Assembly: GCA_900299305.1 (NCBI GenBank)
Contig: OMJJ01000265.1
Location: 1 to 52,759, forward strand
DNA from: a bacterium
Lineage (GTDB): Bacteria; Armatimonadota; Chthonomonadetes; Chthonomonadales; Chthonomonadaceae
Length of the DNA: 52,759 bases
Direction: 5' to 3'
Shown: in pieces, positions 21,593-27,984 of the stretch
How the letters are laid out: every line of letters starts with the position of its first letter
Position numbering within the stretch: position 1 is the stretch's first letter
Notes under the pieces: model-generated
What the model was told of the DNA's origin: nothing
What the model saw: the letters and a program-made list of their open reading frames with translations, nothing else
The model's database searches: none
Made by a program: the position numbers and the translations under genes

Positions 21593-22294
21593 TTAGTTCA
21601 GGGCTTCATCGGAGGTTGCAAGGTGGCTTGCCGCCAGTTGATGCAGTTCCCCTTTTTCAATAAAGTAGACGCGCTCGGCGATATTCACCACATGATCGCT
21701 TATGCGCTCTAGGTACTTGGCGGCGAACATTACGTTCAGGGCGACCAGCCCCTTACTACTATCGGTTGTAATGATATGGGTAAGGTAGTCCCGCATTTCG
21801 TGGTAGAGGTTGTCTACTGCGTCATCATCCTGTATTACCTGCTCTACCATCTGTAGGTCGTGTTGAATAAAGGCTTGCAGGGCGTTGTGGAGCATATCGC
21901 GGGTCATTTGGGTCAGTTTGGGGAGATCTACAAGGGGGCGATATATCCCGTGATTGCGTTGGATGCGCCGCCCTATTTTGGCAATATCTACGGCGTAGTC
22001 GGCAATCCGCTCAATGTCGGTTATCACTTTAAGAGCGGTACCGATGATACGTAGGTCACGTGCAACGGGTTGCTGAAGGGCAATGAGGTTTAGGCACTGT
22101 GTCTCTATCTCAATATCGAACCTATCCACAATGTCGTCACGCCGTACAATCTGTCTTACCAACTCCATATCGCCCTCTATCAGCGCACGTACTGCGTCGG
22201 ATACCATGGTGTCGGCACACGTCGCCATCTCCAAAATCTGTTCTTGGAGAGAGGAGATACTTTGCGAGTAGTTGGTACGAATGGAGGTGGTCAT
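21593..22294 (-). CDS. phoU: Phosphate signalling protein PhoU
   Basis: Two PhoU repeats; VVRRDDIVDRFDIEIETQCLNLIALQQPVARDLRIIGTALKVITDIERIADYAVDIAK; pst operon context. Confidence 0.95.
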   Translation of the reverse strand: MTTSIRTNYSQSISSLQEQILEMATCADTMVSDAVRALIEGDMELVRQIVRRDDIVDRFDIEIETQCLNLIALQQPVARDLRIIGTALKVITDIERIADYAVDIAKIGRRIQRNHGIYRPLVDLPKLTQMTRDMLHNALQAFIQHDLQMVEQVIQDDDAVDNLYHEMRDYLTHIITTDSSKGLVALNVMFAAKYLERISDHVVNIAERVYFIEKGELHQLAASHLATSDEALN

Positions 22295-22314: not shown

Positions 22315-23181
22315 TTAGCCGAAACGCCCCTGCACATAGTCTTCGGTGCGCTTGTCTCGTGGAGAGGTGAATATCTTGATGGTATCATCCGATTCAATAA
22401 GTTCACCTTTATAGAAAAATGCAGTGCGCTCCGAAACGCGCCCCGCTTGTTGCATATTGTGGGTAACGATAACAATCGTGTACTTGCTCTTCAACTCGCC
22501 CATAAGCTCTTCAATCTTCATGGTAGAGATGGGGTCGAGGGCAGAACAGGGTTCGTCCATAAGAATAACTTCGGGTTCAACGGCGAGTACCCTTGCGATA
22601 CAGAGCCTCTGCTGTTGTCCACCAGAGAGGTCGAACGCCGATTTGTGTAGGCTATCTTTTACCTCGTCCCAAAGGTATGCTTGGCGCAAACTGGTCTCTA
22701 CTAACTCGTTGAGGCGAGTTTTGTTTCGCTCCCCATGAAGTTTGGGTCCGTAGGCGATGTTCTCCCAGATGCTCATAGGGAAGGGGTTTTGCTTCTGGAA
22801 CACCATGCCCACGCGCTTTCTCAAGCCCACCACATCCACGCCCTTTGCGTAGAGGTTTTCGCCGTTTAGGGTCAGGTTTCCTTCTAGGCGCGTGTTGGGG
22901 TAGAGGTCGTTCATGCGGTTCATGGTGCGTAAAAAGGTCGACTTACCACAACCGGAGGGCCCAATCAGTGCCGTTACCTGATTGGGGTATATCTCAATGT
23001 TAATACCTTTTAGTGCCTGAAATTTGCCGTAGTAGAAATCTACGCCTTGGGCTTGTATGAGGGGCTTTTGGGAGCTAGCTAACTCTCTTTGCCCAACTCC
23101 TGAAGAGGTGCTCACACTAGGTGAGAGAGGAGGCTCTTCAGTGGTAAGAACCGCACTGCTATTCGGCGATACTGATGTCAT
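22315..23181 (-). CDS. pstB: Phosphate ABC transporter ATP-binding protein PstB
   Basis: [81 protein letters not shown]. Confidence 0.97.
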
Positions 23182-23554
23182 TCAAAACTCCCGCGTCTGG
23201 TTTAACGCTTTTGGCGGCATCACGAGCTACGTCCTCGGCTCGGTCTTTCTCATCGGTGGTTTTTACCGTTCCAGAGAGGTGTACCGTTCCTCCAGAGACG
23301 CTTACCTCTATTTTTGCCTCTTTTAAGGTTGCCTCTGCTTTTATCTTATCGGATATAGCACTTTGTAGTTTTCCATCATCGGCAGAAGATACTGGGTTGG
23401 GCGCAGTACTCCCTTCGGAACCACTTTTGTCGGCAGTATTGGGAGCCGTAGTGGCTACACTCTGCTTCTCTGCGGGCTTATCCCCACCGCATCCCATCCA
23501 AGCCATGCCCCAAATCGGGACAATTACCGTTATCAGTAGAAGTTTTTTCACCAT
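23159..23554 (-). CDS. BON-domain lipoprotein
   Basis: Lipobox [47 protein letters not shown]. Confidence 0.85.
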
Positions 23555-23582: not shown

Positions 23583-25631
23583 CTAGGCGGTGCGGCTAAA
23601 GCGGTTACGGGTAAAGATTCGAGCGAGGATGTTAAACACCAACACCAACATGACGAGCAGAAACGCTGCGCCCCAAAGTTGGTGGTAGGTGTCGGGTTGG
23701 TCGCGTAGTGTGTAGATAAGCATGGGAAGCGAGGCTATCGGGCTTTTCATGTCCGTGCTCCACATCGTGCTGTTGCACCCCACCATAAGAAGGGGGGCGG
23801 TCTCTCCTGCTACACGCGCTACTGCCAACAGAATTCCTGTTACGATACCGCCACGCGCCGCCGGCAGAACTACCTGCCACATGGTGCGCGTATAGGTTGC
23901 CCCTAACGCTAATGAGCCTTCGCGAAGCGACATCGGAACCAAGCGAATCAGCTCCTCTGTAGTTCGCATCACCGTCGGTATCATCATAATACCCAATCCG
24001 AAGGCTCCAGCTTTAGCAATTTCCGCTTTTTCTGCGGCAGGAACAATAATTACCGAGTAGGCGAATATCCCAATGACGATAGAAGGAACTCCATTAAGCA
24101 AATCGGTAGCAAAGCGGATAACACTTCCAACACGAGAGTTTCCGAACTCGGCAAGGTAGATACCGCCCATAACACCTACAGGAATACCGATAAGAGATGC
24201 CCAAAACACCAGCAGTCCGGTTCCGACAATCGCATGGCGTACCCCTCCCGCGTCCGGCATTTTGAAGAAATCTCCATTAAGAGCAGAGATACCCTCTTTA
24301 CCTACAAAAATCAACAGTGCGAACAGGGCAAAACAGGCGACAAAAGCGCATAGACCACACACACAGACCGCAAACAGGCTACTCGATTTGCGCCAAGCCA
24401 CGAACACCGGTTTGGCGGGAACCCATTGGTTAAAGAGTACCAACCCTAAAAGCAGATACCCAACGATTTCTGCCGTTCCAAATAGCCCTGCCGCCCCCTT
24501 ATGAGAAACATCGCTAAAGAACTGGAGAACAAAAACGAGAGACACCAGTCCCAACGCACACCATCTGCTTCCACTACTAATGCCCTCTTTCAGTTTCTGG
24601 CTCCATAGGTTTCCACTACCGGGCTTCATCGCTGTAAGCCATACCATACCGCGTGCCAGCGCATTAACCAGTATGGTAACAAGAAAAAGGGTAAACCCTA
24701 TCTGTGTGAGGGCGGCTTTGTGCAAATCCGAGTTGGGGCTAGGATACTGGTCGGCAAGCAGAGCCGTCATGGTGTACCCAGAGCGAAACAGGGAGAAACT
24801 TGCGGCATTTCCGATTGCGGGAAAACTGATTTTACTGCCTATCACCATCGTTACCGCCATCGTCTCTCCGATAGCGCGTCCCAAACCAAGCATAACCGCC
24901 CCAATAATACCGCTACTGGCGTATCTTAGGACTACCGTTTTTATCGCCTCCCAGCGTGTCGCGCCCATGCCATAAGCGGCTTCACGTTGGGTAAGGGGAA
25001 CGGTTCGCAGAACATCTCTCGACACGGCGGTAATAAAGGGAAGTACCATCATGGCAAGGATAATCCCCGCCGCAAAAAAGTGCTGCCCGGTACTGGCATC
25101 GGGGGTGGGCGCAAAAAATGGTATCTGAGGAAAGGTGCTGGTGAACCAGTTTCCTACATGGGCTTGAAGCGGTGGAATGAGGTAGTTTAATGCCCAGAAA
25201 CCATAAACGATACTAGGAACTGCCGCCAATAACTCCACCACAAAAGAGATCGGAGTACTTAGCCATTTAGGGGCGATTTCCGAGAGGAAGATAGCCCCGC
25301 CAATTCCTAAAGGAACCGCGATAAGCAGGGCCACTCCAGAGGTAACGAGGGTTCCGTAGAGGAAGGGAAGTGCGCCAAAAAGGTCGCCCACTTTTTTGTC
25401 TTCACTTGCCGCTACCGGATCCCACTGGGTAGAGGTGTAGAAACTGGAACCAGAGTGTGCAAAACTAGGACGAGAAACCCAACCCAACATCACCCCAATA
25501 AGAACGATAAGGAACACGGTGACACACGCGATAATGAGCGTGAGATTCCGGAAAACCCAGTCCGTTTGAGAAGCGGTTAGGATACGGCGGCGTACCTGCG
25601 GAGGCGTGAGGTTTTGAGGTGTCGAAGTCAT
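23583..25631 (-). CDS. Fused phosphate ABC transporter permease PstC-PstA
   Basis: N-terminal half has PstC signatures (VELLAAVPSIVYGFWAL; GMGATRWEAIKTVVL; GLGRAIGETMAVTMVIGS); C-terminal half has PstA signatures (GGIYLAEFG; DLLNGVPSIVIGIFAY; ALGATYTRTMWQVVLPAARGGIVTGILLAVARVAGETAPLL). One uninterrupted 682-aa frame. Confidence 0.93.
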   Translation of the reverse strand: MTSTPQNLTPPQVRRRILTASQTDWVFRNLTLIIACVTVFLIVLIGVMLGWVSRPSFAHSGSSFYTSTQWDPVAASEDKKVGDLFGALPFLYGTLVTSGVALLIAVPLGIGGAIFLSEIAPKWLSTPISFVVELLAAVPSIVYGFWALNYLIPPLQAHVGNWFTSTFPQIPFFAPTPDASTGQHFFAAGIILAMMVLPFITAVSRDVLRTVPLTQREAAYGMGATRWEAIKTVVLRYASSGIIGAVMLGLGRAIGETMAVTMVIGSKISFPAIGNAASFSLFRSGYTMTALLADQYPSPNSDLHKAALTQIGFTLFLVTILVNALARGMVWLTAMKPGSGNLWSQKLKEGISSGSRWCALGLVSLVFVLQFFSDVSHKGAAGLFGTAEIVGYLLLGLVLFNQWVPAKPVFVAWRKSSSLFAVCVCGLCAFVACFALFALLIFVGKEGISALNGDFFKMPDAGGVRHAIVGTGLLVFWASLIGIPVGVMGGIYLAEFGNSRVGSVIRFATDLLNGVPSIVIGIFAYSVIIVPAAEKAEIAKAGAFGLGIMMIPTVMRTTEELIRLVPMSLREGSLALGATYTRTMWQVVLPAARGGIVTGILLAVARVAGETAPLLMVGCNSTMWSTDMKSPIASLPMLIYTLRDQPDTYHQLWGAAFLLVMLVLVFNILARIFTRNRFSRTA

Positions 25632-25691: not shown

Positions 25692-26729
25692 CTAGTGAAC
25701 GGAAGAGCCGGGTATGCTCTTTAGCACGGCTTTGTTCACTCCGACAAGTTTGTCGGGTAGAGCAGAGTAGTAGAGTGTTTGTGCAAACTCTTGTTGCGCC
25801 TTCTCCAAAGCCCAGTCCCACAGTTTGGTAACGTTGGCGTTATTAGGGTTGTTGGCTTTGTAGATAAGGATGTATGTCAAGCCCGAAATGGGGTAACTGT
25901 TCTTACCCGCAGAGTCTACTATGGGGGTCTTGATGTCCTTTTTAAGTTCGTTCACGGCTCCCGCAATGGCGGCGGTTACACTCTGAACCGACGGCGCAAC
26001 AAAGTTATTGCTTCGGTTTTTAAGAGAGGCGTAAGCGATGTTCTGCTTTACTGCGTACTCTAGTTCGATGTACCCAATGGCTCCCGGTGTGCGTTGAATA
26101 GCACCTGCAACCCCCGCATTTCCTTTACCGCCGATACCAGCGGGCCAGTTGACAGATTTTCCTGCCCCCGGTCCTGCCGCCCAGTCTGCACTCACCTTTT
26201 TAAGATAGTGGGTAAAGATGTAGGTAGTACCAGAGCCATCAGTGCGGTGTGCGGGTTGAATAGCAAGGTCGGGTAGCGCAATTTTCTTGTTTACCGCTAC
26301 GATAGCAGGGTCGTTCCACTTGGTGATTTTTCCCAAGAAGATACCCGCCACAATATCGGAAGTGAGGCGAAGCCCAGCACCAACCCCCGGAACATTGTAC
26401 CCCAAAACCACCGCACCACCAACTGTGGGGATATGCACTACAGGCGCAGGCATCGCACGCTCTTCCTCTGCGGTGAGGGGCGCGTCGCTTGCGCCAAAAT
26501 CGACGGTCTTGGCTTTCAGAGCATTATAGCCTTGCCCCGAACCAACCGACTGGTAGTTTACTCCAACACCAGTAGCCTGTTGGAACTTGGTAAACCACTC
26601 TTTATAGATAGGATAGGGGAAGGTGGCTCCTGCCCCTTGAAGTGTTTGGGCGGACGTATTGACGGTTACGAGGGAGAAAAGCCCCACTGCCGCAAGCATC
26701 AGCCCTTTGTGAAAACCTTTGAGGTTCAT
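25692..26729 (-). CDS. pstS: Phosphate ABC transporter substrate-binding protein PstS
   Basis: LQGAGATFPYPIYKEWFTKFQQATGVGVNYQSVGSGQGYNALKAKTVDFGASDAPL; HRTDGSGTTYIFTHYL. Confidence 0.97.
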   Translation of the reverse strand: MNLKGFHKGLMLAAVGLFSLVTVNTSAQTLQGAGATFPYPIYKEWFTKFQQATGVGVNYQSVGSGQGYNALKAKTVDFGASDAPLTAEEERAMPAPVVHIPTVGGAVVLGYNVPGVGAGLRLTSDIVAGIFLGKITKWNDPAIVAVNKKIALPDLAIQPAHRTDGSGTTYIFTHYLKKVSADWAAGPGAGKSVNWPAGIGGKGNAGVAGAIQRTPGAIGYIELEYAVKQNIAYASLKNRSNNFVAPSVQSVTAAIAGAVNELKKDIKTPIVDSAGKNSYPISGLTYILIYKANNPNNANVTKLWDWALEKAQQEFAQTLYYSALPDKLVGVNKAVLKSIPGSSVH

Positions 26730-26797
26730 TAGATGTCTAACTCCTTAGTGTGTCATCTGTAATGTTTGGTTATGATTGGGAGTATAGTCGACTTTTG

Positions 26798-26847
26798 TTA
26801 AGGATAGATTAAGGAGTAGTTAATTTTGTATTAAGGAGGGGTTAAGG
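26798..26847 (-). promoter_or_regulatory. Candidate Pho box: five direct repeats with exact 11-bp period upstream of pstS
   Basis: TTAAGG/TTAATT cores at 26798, 26809, 26820, 26831 and 26842; on the pstS strand CTTAACCCCTC CTTAATACAAA ATTAACTACTC CTTAATCTATC CTTAACAA. Confidence 0.75.
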
Positions 26848-26994: not shown

Positions 26995-27984
26995 ATGGCA
27001 ACTTATAGCCGAAACCCGTTGCTGTCTTTGCTGGTCGTTAGCGTCGTCGCTTCTCTTGTGATGCTACCCAAACAAGAGGCAAAGTACACCAACCTTCCGA
27101 ACTACTTTCCGTCCAAACCCGACAACCAAGCCATTGGTCCAGCCCACGGGGGCGCATCTGTAGACCGTGCGGGCAACATCTATGTGAGTACCGATACCCC
27201 GCGTGGGATACTGGTCTTTGGGAAAGATGGCAAGTACAAACGTTCGTTTGGACCTACCCAGATACACGGGCTGTATCTTCAACGTGAAAAGGACGGTGAG
27301 TACCTCTATGCCGCCCGTCCTAACTTCCACGAAGTCACCAAAATCAAGACCGATGGAACCGTGGCATGGACAATGGGGTATCCTACCGAGTCTGGTATCT
27401 ACACCAAAGCCGAAGAGTTTGCGCCTACGAATGTAGTTGCGCTTAAAGACGGCACCATTTTTGTTGCAGATGGATATGGCAAAAACTACATCCATAAGTA
27501 CGACAAAAACCGCAAATACATTAAGTCGTTTGGTGGGCAGGGCGCAATGCCGGCAGAGGATGGCAAGTTCAACCGATGTCATGGGCTTGCGGTAGATAAC
27601 CGCGCCAAGAAGCCGCTTCTGGTGGTCTGTAACCGCGAAAGCGGGCGCGTGGAGCATTGGGATACAGACGGCAACCTTGTAAAAGTCCTACAGCGTAACC
27701 TGAGAATGCCTGCGGCAGTCAACGTAGGCAAAGACTATATTGCTATTGCGGAACTGCAAGGGCGTGTTACCATACTAGGAAAAGACAACAGCATCGTGGC
27801 AGTGCTTGCCGATAACCCCGACCCCTCCCAACGTGCCAACTTTGGGCTAGAGCCCTCTAAATGGACAGAAGGAATCTCCAACTCTCCCCACGGCATCACC
27901 TTCGATAAAGACGGAAATGTTATCGTATCGGAGTGGAGCCAGTACGGGCGACTACACAAGTTCCTGCTCAACACAGAGCCTTAG
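26995..27984 (+). CDS. NHL-repeat / six-bladed beta-propeller protein
   Basis: HGGASVDRAGNIYVSTDTPRGILVFGKDGKYKRSFG; DGTIFVADGYGKNYIHKYDKNRKYIKSFGGQG; GITFDKDGNVIVSEW. Confidence 0.83.
   Translation: MATYSRNPLLSLLVVSVVASLVMLPKQEAKYTNLPNYFPSKPDNQAIGPAHGGASVDRAGNIYVSTDTPRGILVFGKDGKYKRSFGPTQIHGLYLQREKDGEYLYAARPNFHEVTKIKTDGTVAWTMGYPTESGIYTKAEEFAPTNVVALKDGTIFVADGYGKNYIHKYDKNRKYIKSFGGQGAMPAEDGKFNRCHGLAVDNRAKKPLLVVCNRESGRVEHWDTDGNLVKVLQRNLRMPAAVNVGKDYIAIAELQGRVTILGKDNSIVAVLADNPDPSQRANFGLEPSKWTEGISNSPHGITFDKDGNVIVSEWSQYGRLHKFLLNTEP

Follow-up and report, generated by a model that had tools for sequence, protein, structure and literature searches.

A five-unit candidate PHO box upstream of pstS in Chthonomonadaceae and its predicted regulon

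The pstS gene of a Chthonomonadaceae genome is preceded by five TTAA-cored units repeated at exactly 11 bp, and we read this array, with a probability of about 90%, as a PHO box: five head-to-tail half-sites predicted to be bound by a PhoB-type regulator encoded on another contig (C268). Support comes from the geometry of the repeats, their spacing from a -10 box, their conservation at pstS, and the presence of the regulator together with its linkage to pst genes in relatives, all of it drawn from sequence comparison. A sequence-only reading had proposed a Pho box at this place and named three observations that would speak against it: a motif missing from other phosphate-starvation genes, a lack of conservation in relatives, and a genome devoid of a PhoB or SphR homologue. 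None of the three holds, and the proposal is supported.

A candidate PHO box upstream of pstS

The window, meaning the whole stretch of DNA analyzed, is a stretch of 52,759 bases on contig C265, from a genome of 4.47 Mb in 404 contigs (G000). TTAA cores start at 26798, 26809, 26820, 26831 and 26842, the very starts and the exact 11-bp step that had been claimed, and on the minus (pstS) strand the units read CTTAACCCCTC, CTTAATACAAA, ATTAACTACTC, CTTAATCTATC and CTTAACAAAAG, identical on re-reading to those first reported. The array lies about 69–116 bp upstream of the pstS ATG (26729), in agreement with an earlier estimate of about 70–120 bp. A PHO box is defined as two or more direct repeat units of 11 nt (PMC4415409), of which five are present here, and in PhoB promoters the repeats are placed ahead of the -10 box (PMC1906773, PMC3616915). 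A box that replaces the -35 element is expected about 10 bp upstream of the -10 box; the distance to TATACT is 11 bp. This -10 box was absent from the earlier description. The features of the promoter and of the genes behind it are as follows.

26798–26846, minus strand: candidate Pho-box array, five 11-bp units with a TTAA core (CTTAACCCCTC CTTAATACAAA ATTAACTACTC CTTAATCTATC CTTAAC...)
26781–26786, minus strand: -10 box TATACT, 11 bp downstream of the last TTAA (pattern match G000:C265:26781-26812, minus)
26741–26746, minus strand: ribosome-binding site AAGGAG before pstS, read from the sequence
25692–26729, minus strand: pstS, phosphate-binding protein, 345 aa (TIGR00975, 346.8 bits, over cut-off)
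23583–25631, minus strand: fused pstC-pstA permease gene, 682 aa (TIGR02138 PstC at 26-331 and TIGR00974 PstA at 420-676, both over cut-off)
23159–23554, minus strand: BON-domain gene within the pst row, 131 aa (PF04972, 50.7 bits)
22315–23181, minus strand: pstB, ATPase, 288 aa (TIGR00972, 406.2 bits, over cut-off)
21593–22294, minus strand: phoU, 233 aa (TIGR02135, 203.5 bits, over cut-off)

The five genes share one strand and are closely spaced, and we infer a single operon, pstS-pstCA-bon-pstB-phoU. The pstC-pstA fusion was found in every Chthonomonadaceae locus checked, whereas the two genes are separate in G033, a member of another family. The BON-domain gene sits between pstCA and pstB; at this place G001 and G007 have a gap without it.

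Motifs were counted throughout by pattern searches, each with a reversed-pattern control. The window contains 106 copies of TTAA, from which the expected number of chains of five at a single fixed spacing is about 2e-9 per window. When the 265-bp intergenic region was shuffled 20,000 times with dinucleotides preserved, the longest 11-bp TTAA chain had two units. Across the genome, three TTAA at an 11-bp period (≤1 mismatch) occur 24 times; the reversed control pattern gave 6.

Conservation before pstS in relatives

The array stands upstream of phosphate-uptake genes in relatives as well. Homologues of pstS are preceded by five units in G007, by four in G001 and G003 (four with one mismatch in G002), by three in G010, G011 and G015, and by two perfect units in G004, G005, G006, G014 and G016. 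Two units are also found in some members of other families (G033, G042, G047, G050 and G055). At these promoters a -10-like box mostly follows about 11 bp past the array. Arrays of two to five units thus precede pstS in most family members checked, and conservation in relatives is present where its lack would have counted against a Pho box. No array was seen in the pstS upstream regions of G008, G012 and several more distant genomes. A PstS search of G009 and G013 gave no match; both still have an orthologue of the PhoB-type regulator and a small RNA with an array (see below). The distant relative G034 shows several TTAATGACTTTTTAATGACT-like copies, with two TTAA at 11 bp. In a scan of named genomes for PstS relatives, the matches listed came mostly from other phyla and included at least two records titled Armatimonadetes.

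A PhoB-type regulator encoded outside the window

The earlier proposal had the regulator encoded outside the window and acting in trans; a PhoB/PhoR-type pair on contig C268 could fill this role, and a PhoB homologue is thus present in the genome. The regulator (227 aa) is one of three full-length OmpR-type regulators in the genome. It scores 267.2 bits against the PhoB model TIGR02154, below the cut-off of 296.2, and slightly higher, 273.9, against YycF (cut-off 340). Failure to pass the curated PhoB model affects the name of the protein, not the layout of the operator. The best NCBIfam match of the kinase gene that follows is PnpS, just under cut-off, and the solved sequences closest to the regulator are RegX3 and MtrA.

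A single orthologue of the C268 regulator, 63–85% identical (71% in G005), occurs in each of the 16 other family genomes, and in two of them the pair adjoins pst genes: in G015 phoB-phoR immediately precedes pstS, and in G010 it comes right after pstB. The arrangement of G015 is also found in the distant genome G049. The G015 regulator is 72% identical to the C268 protein, compared with 42% and 39% to the other two regulators of our genome. In G008 an array of four units, with one mismatch, stands at the phoB gene itself, 11 bp ahead of TACACT; no array was found in the region upstream of our own phoB on C268, and a search for PhoD in our genome found none.

A structured small RNA behind the best match

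A pattern derived from the pstS promoters of relatives, CTTAAYA-N4-CTTAAYA-N9-TATAMT, has 7 matches in our genome and 0 in controls. The pstS promoter ranks second, with one mismatch; the best match, with none, lies at C246:170-202, and behind it we found one further feature.

C246:52-169 (L259, G000), minus strand: structured small RNA of about 118 nt, behind the array match C246:170-202

This RNA has three hairpins, one 5′, one in the middle and one that resembles a terminator, and it folds 3.9 sd better than shuffles. When the copies from our genome, G001 and G003 are aligned, 96% of base-pair cells hold and six pairs are changed on both sides, as against 2.4 in shuffles. No Rfam covariance model matched it at E up to 1. 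A covariance model of the RNA only, from which the array was excluded, found homologues in 12 other family genomes (two of which belong to the training set; the match in G012 is weak, E 0.04), and a pattern built on the invariant core occurs precisely once in our genome and in each of these 12, with 0 control matches. The core pattern was not found in other families of the order, nor was a copy of the RNA found in G005. In all 13 genomes a four-unit 11-bp TTAA array stands just upstream (eight perfect, five with one mismatch), a level reached by 0 of 1000 shuffles for each. A pyrimidine follows TTAA in 84% of the small-RNA units, compared with 88% of the pstS units.

The stretches ACUCUCC and AUC(A/G)CCC, both invariant, are rich in C, and the core of the RNA may accordingly pair with ribosome-binding sites. 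We considered that the transcript might be a 5′ leader and rejected this: in G001, G003, G009 and G013 the gene listed next lies on the opposite strand, and neighbours vary between genera. In four relatives the small RNA comes after the ligase gene that stands beside phoR in our genome, a hint only; no intact phoBR-ligase-RNA cluster was seen among the loci compared. At L251 (G015:C229), about six TTAA units precede TATACT with no long open reading frame close downstream, possibly another small RNA.

Array classes within the genome

The more general pattern TTAA-N7-TTAA-N11-TANNNT has 14 matches in our genome, against 1 in the control. Several precede DUF1559 pseudopilin genes (PF07596 with PF07963), others the genes of a DUF4920 protein, of a TPR lipoprotein and of a product with cytochrome c-type matches, and several recur in G001, G003 and G013. 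We initially entertained a single PhoB regulon comprising all TTAA arrays of the genome and dropped it, since flank preferences split them into classes. Units of the pstS arrays have C before TTAA in 74% of cases and a pyrimidine after it in 88%; units of a second class have T before (78%) and G after (53%). Both differences have Fisher p < 1e-9, a value that is optimistic in that units of related promoters are non-independent and membership of the second class was decided by the genes behind the arrays, although the split is large. The simplest reading is a different regulator, which the TTTAAG class probably has. The two further classes are located as follows.

L009, L010, L011, L029 and L030 (C299, C317, C326, C146 and C151): TTTAAG array class, 11 bp, before pseudopilin, cytochrome-like, DUF4920 and TPR genes; recurs in relatives
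L036, L040 and L042 (C310, C338 and C402), with L249 and L250 (G015:C323): third class, TTAAYGG at 11 bp with a TA-rich -10, near glycosyl-type genes

Sites across the family

In the 17 family genomes, the pstS-derived pattern CTTAAYAT-N3-CTTAAYAT-N8-TANNNT (≤2 mismatches) has 38 sites, compared with 3 in controls. Setting aside ten pstS promoters, four small-RNA promoters and three repeats of places already counted leaves 21. Fourteen of these precede DUF1559-type pseudopilin genes, an outcome with a chance below 1e-12 if such genes make up 1.5–5% of all genes, and another two, in G006 and G007, stand before genes for phosphoesterases of the beta-propeller type (PF04185, over cut-off). Pseudopilins were called from the FTLIELLVVIAIIAILAAILFPVF signature read protein by protein, and Pfam was run on two proteins of our own genome, which has 57 N_methyl matches. 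One DUF1559 site is a four-unit array in G005 (G005:C1:2566777), a genome whose pstS also carries the array.

That most further sites lie at DUF1559 genes and not at classical phosphate genes counts against the PHO-box reading. So do the regulator's score below the PhoB cut-off and the array-less pstS regions of G008 and G012. Outside pst, the motif was seen at the phosphoesterases of G006 and G007 and at phoB of G008; in our own genome phoB has no array and no phoD was found, two further points against the reading.

Proposed mechanism and alternatives

On the PHO-box reading, the C268 regulator would be activated by the PhoR-type kinase whose gene adjoins its own, and when phosphate is low the phosphorylated protein would occupy the five units in tandem. 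Bound there, it would replace a -35 element 11 bp upstream of TATACT and recruit RNA polymerase, leading to transcription of pstS-pstCA-bon-pstB-phoU. Binding by the C268 protein, its phosphorylation, activation rather than repression, and dependence on phosphate are steps that we infer. Judging by the motif and spacing that they share with pstS, this regulator probably drives the small RNA as well, together with some of the family's phosphoesterases and a group of its DUF1559 pseudopilin genes.

The array could instead be the site of another OmpR-type regulator, such as those encoded on C156 or C356 (both nearest CopR/CzcR-type models), and the signal would then not be phosphate. We consider this unlikely. 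Direct repeats of 11 bp are common across the OmpR/PhoB family, our genome has further TTAA array classes with different flanks, and many sites lie at DUF1559 genes, all of which would suit such a protein; yet linkage to pst in relatives was seen only for the orthologue of the C268 regulator, and the flanks of the pstS array differ from those of the TTTAAG class.

Two other readings are already disfavoured by the evidence against each. The array falls within an intergenic region shared with a divergent NHL-repeat gene (26995–27984, plus strand) and might serve that gene, but the plus strand has no -10 box at the conserved spacing, and relatives keep the array with pstS while the upstream neighbour varies, which makes this very improbable. 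AT-rich repeats in helical phase can bend DNA, and the units might accordingly be a structural feature of bendable DNA, or plain chance, with no sequence-specific protein involved. This we judge the least probable of all: no shuffle reached even three units, reversed control patterns have few matches, and relatives keep the TTAA cores at 11 bp although the spacers diverge.

Returning to the PHO-box reading, the box itself follows textbook PhoB logic with a TTAA-cored half-site, in a little-studied phylum. Its specialist interest lies in the predicted regulon, chiefly in the small RNA and the pseudopilins. Even with no more than sequence to go on, the motif is sufficiently specific to point to a regulon, and it ties an Rfam-less, family-wide small RNA and a large DUF1559 paralogue family of unknown function to a phosphate-type regulator. 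With odds only slightly better than even, we propose that the PhoB-type regulon of Chthonomonadaceae is non-classical, comprising pst, a structured small RNA and many DUF1559 pseudopilin genes; on that view, a shortage of phosphate would alter both translation and the surface structures related to pili or secretion.

Comparison with known systems

Like the pstS array, the E. coli PhoB pho box consists of 11-nt direct repeats about 10 bp upstream of the -10 box and before pst (PMC1906773, PMC4415409); its core, however, is CTGTCAT-like and it usually has two units, where the array has a TTAA core and five. The Synechocystis SphR Pho box comprises at least three tandem 8-bp repeats with 3-bp linkers and the consensus CTTAACCT (PMC1906773). 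A match to both the 11-bp PhoB period and the SphR consensus had been claimed for the array. The period, the 3-nt spacing and the CTTAAY core stand; the positions after TTAAY fit the SphR consensus only in part. The pstS array has five units, the arrays of relatives prefer CTTAAYAT, and the predicted regulator is an Armatimonadota PhoB-type protein.

Small RNAs linked to the phosphate response have been described elsewhere. PsiR1 of Synechocystis 6803 is a phosphate-induced transcript that is missing from Synechocystis 6714 (PMC5386190), and phosphate-induced sRNA candidates of S. meliloti are without an evident PhoB site (PMC2573895). The companion small RNA resembles these in its link to phosphate, predicted here from the array, and differs from them in occurring in 13 of the 17 family genomes, with a four-unit array every time.
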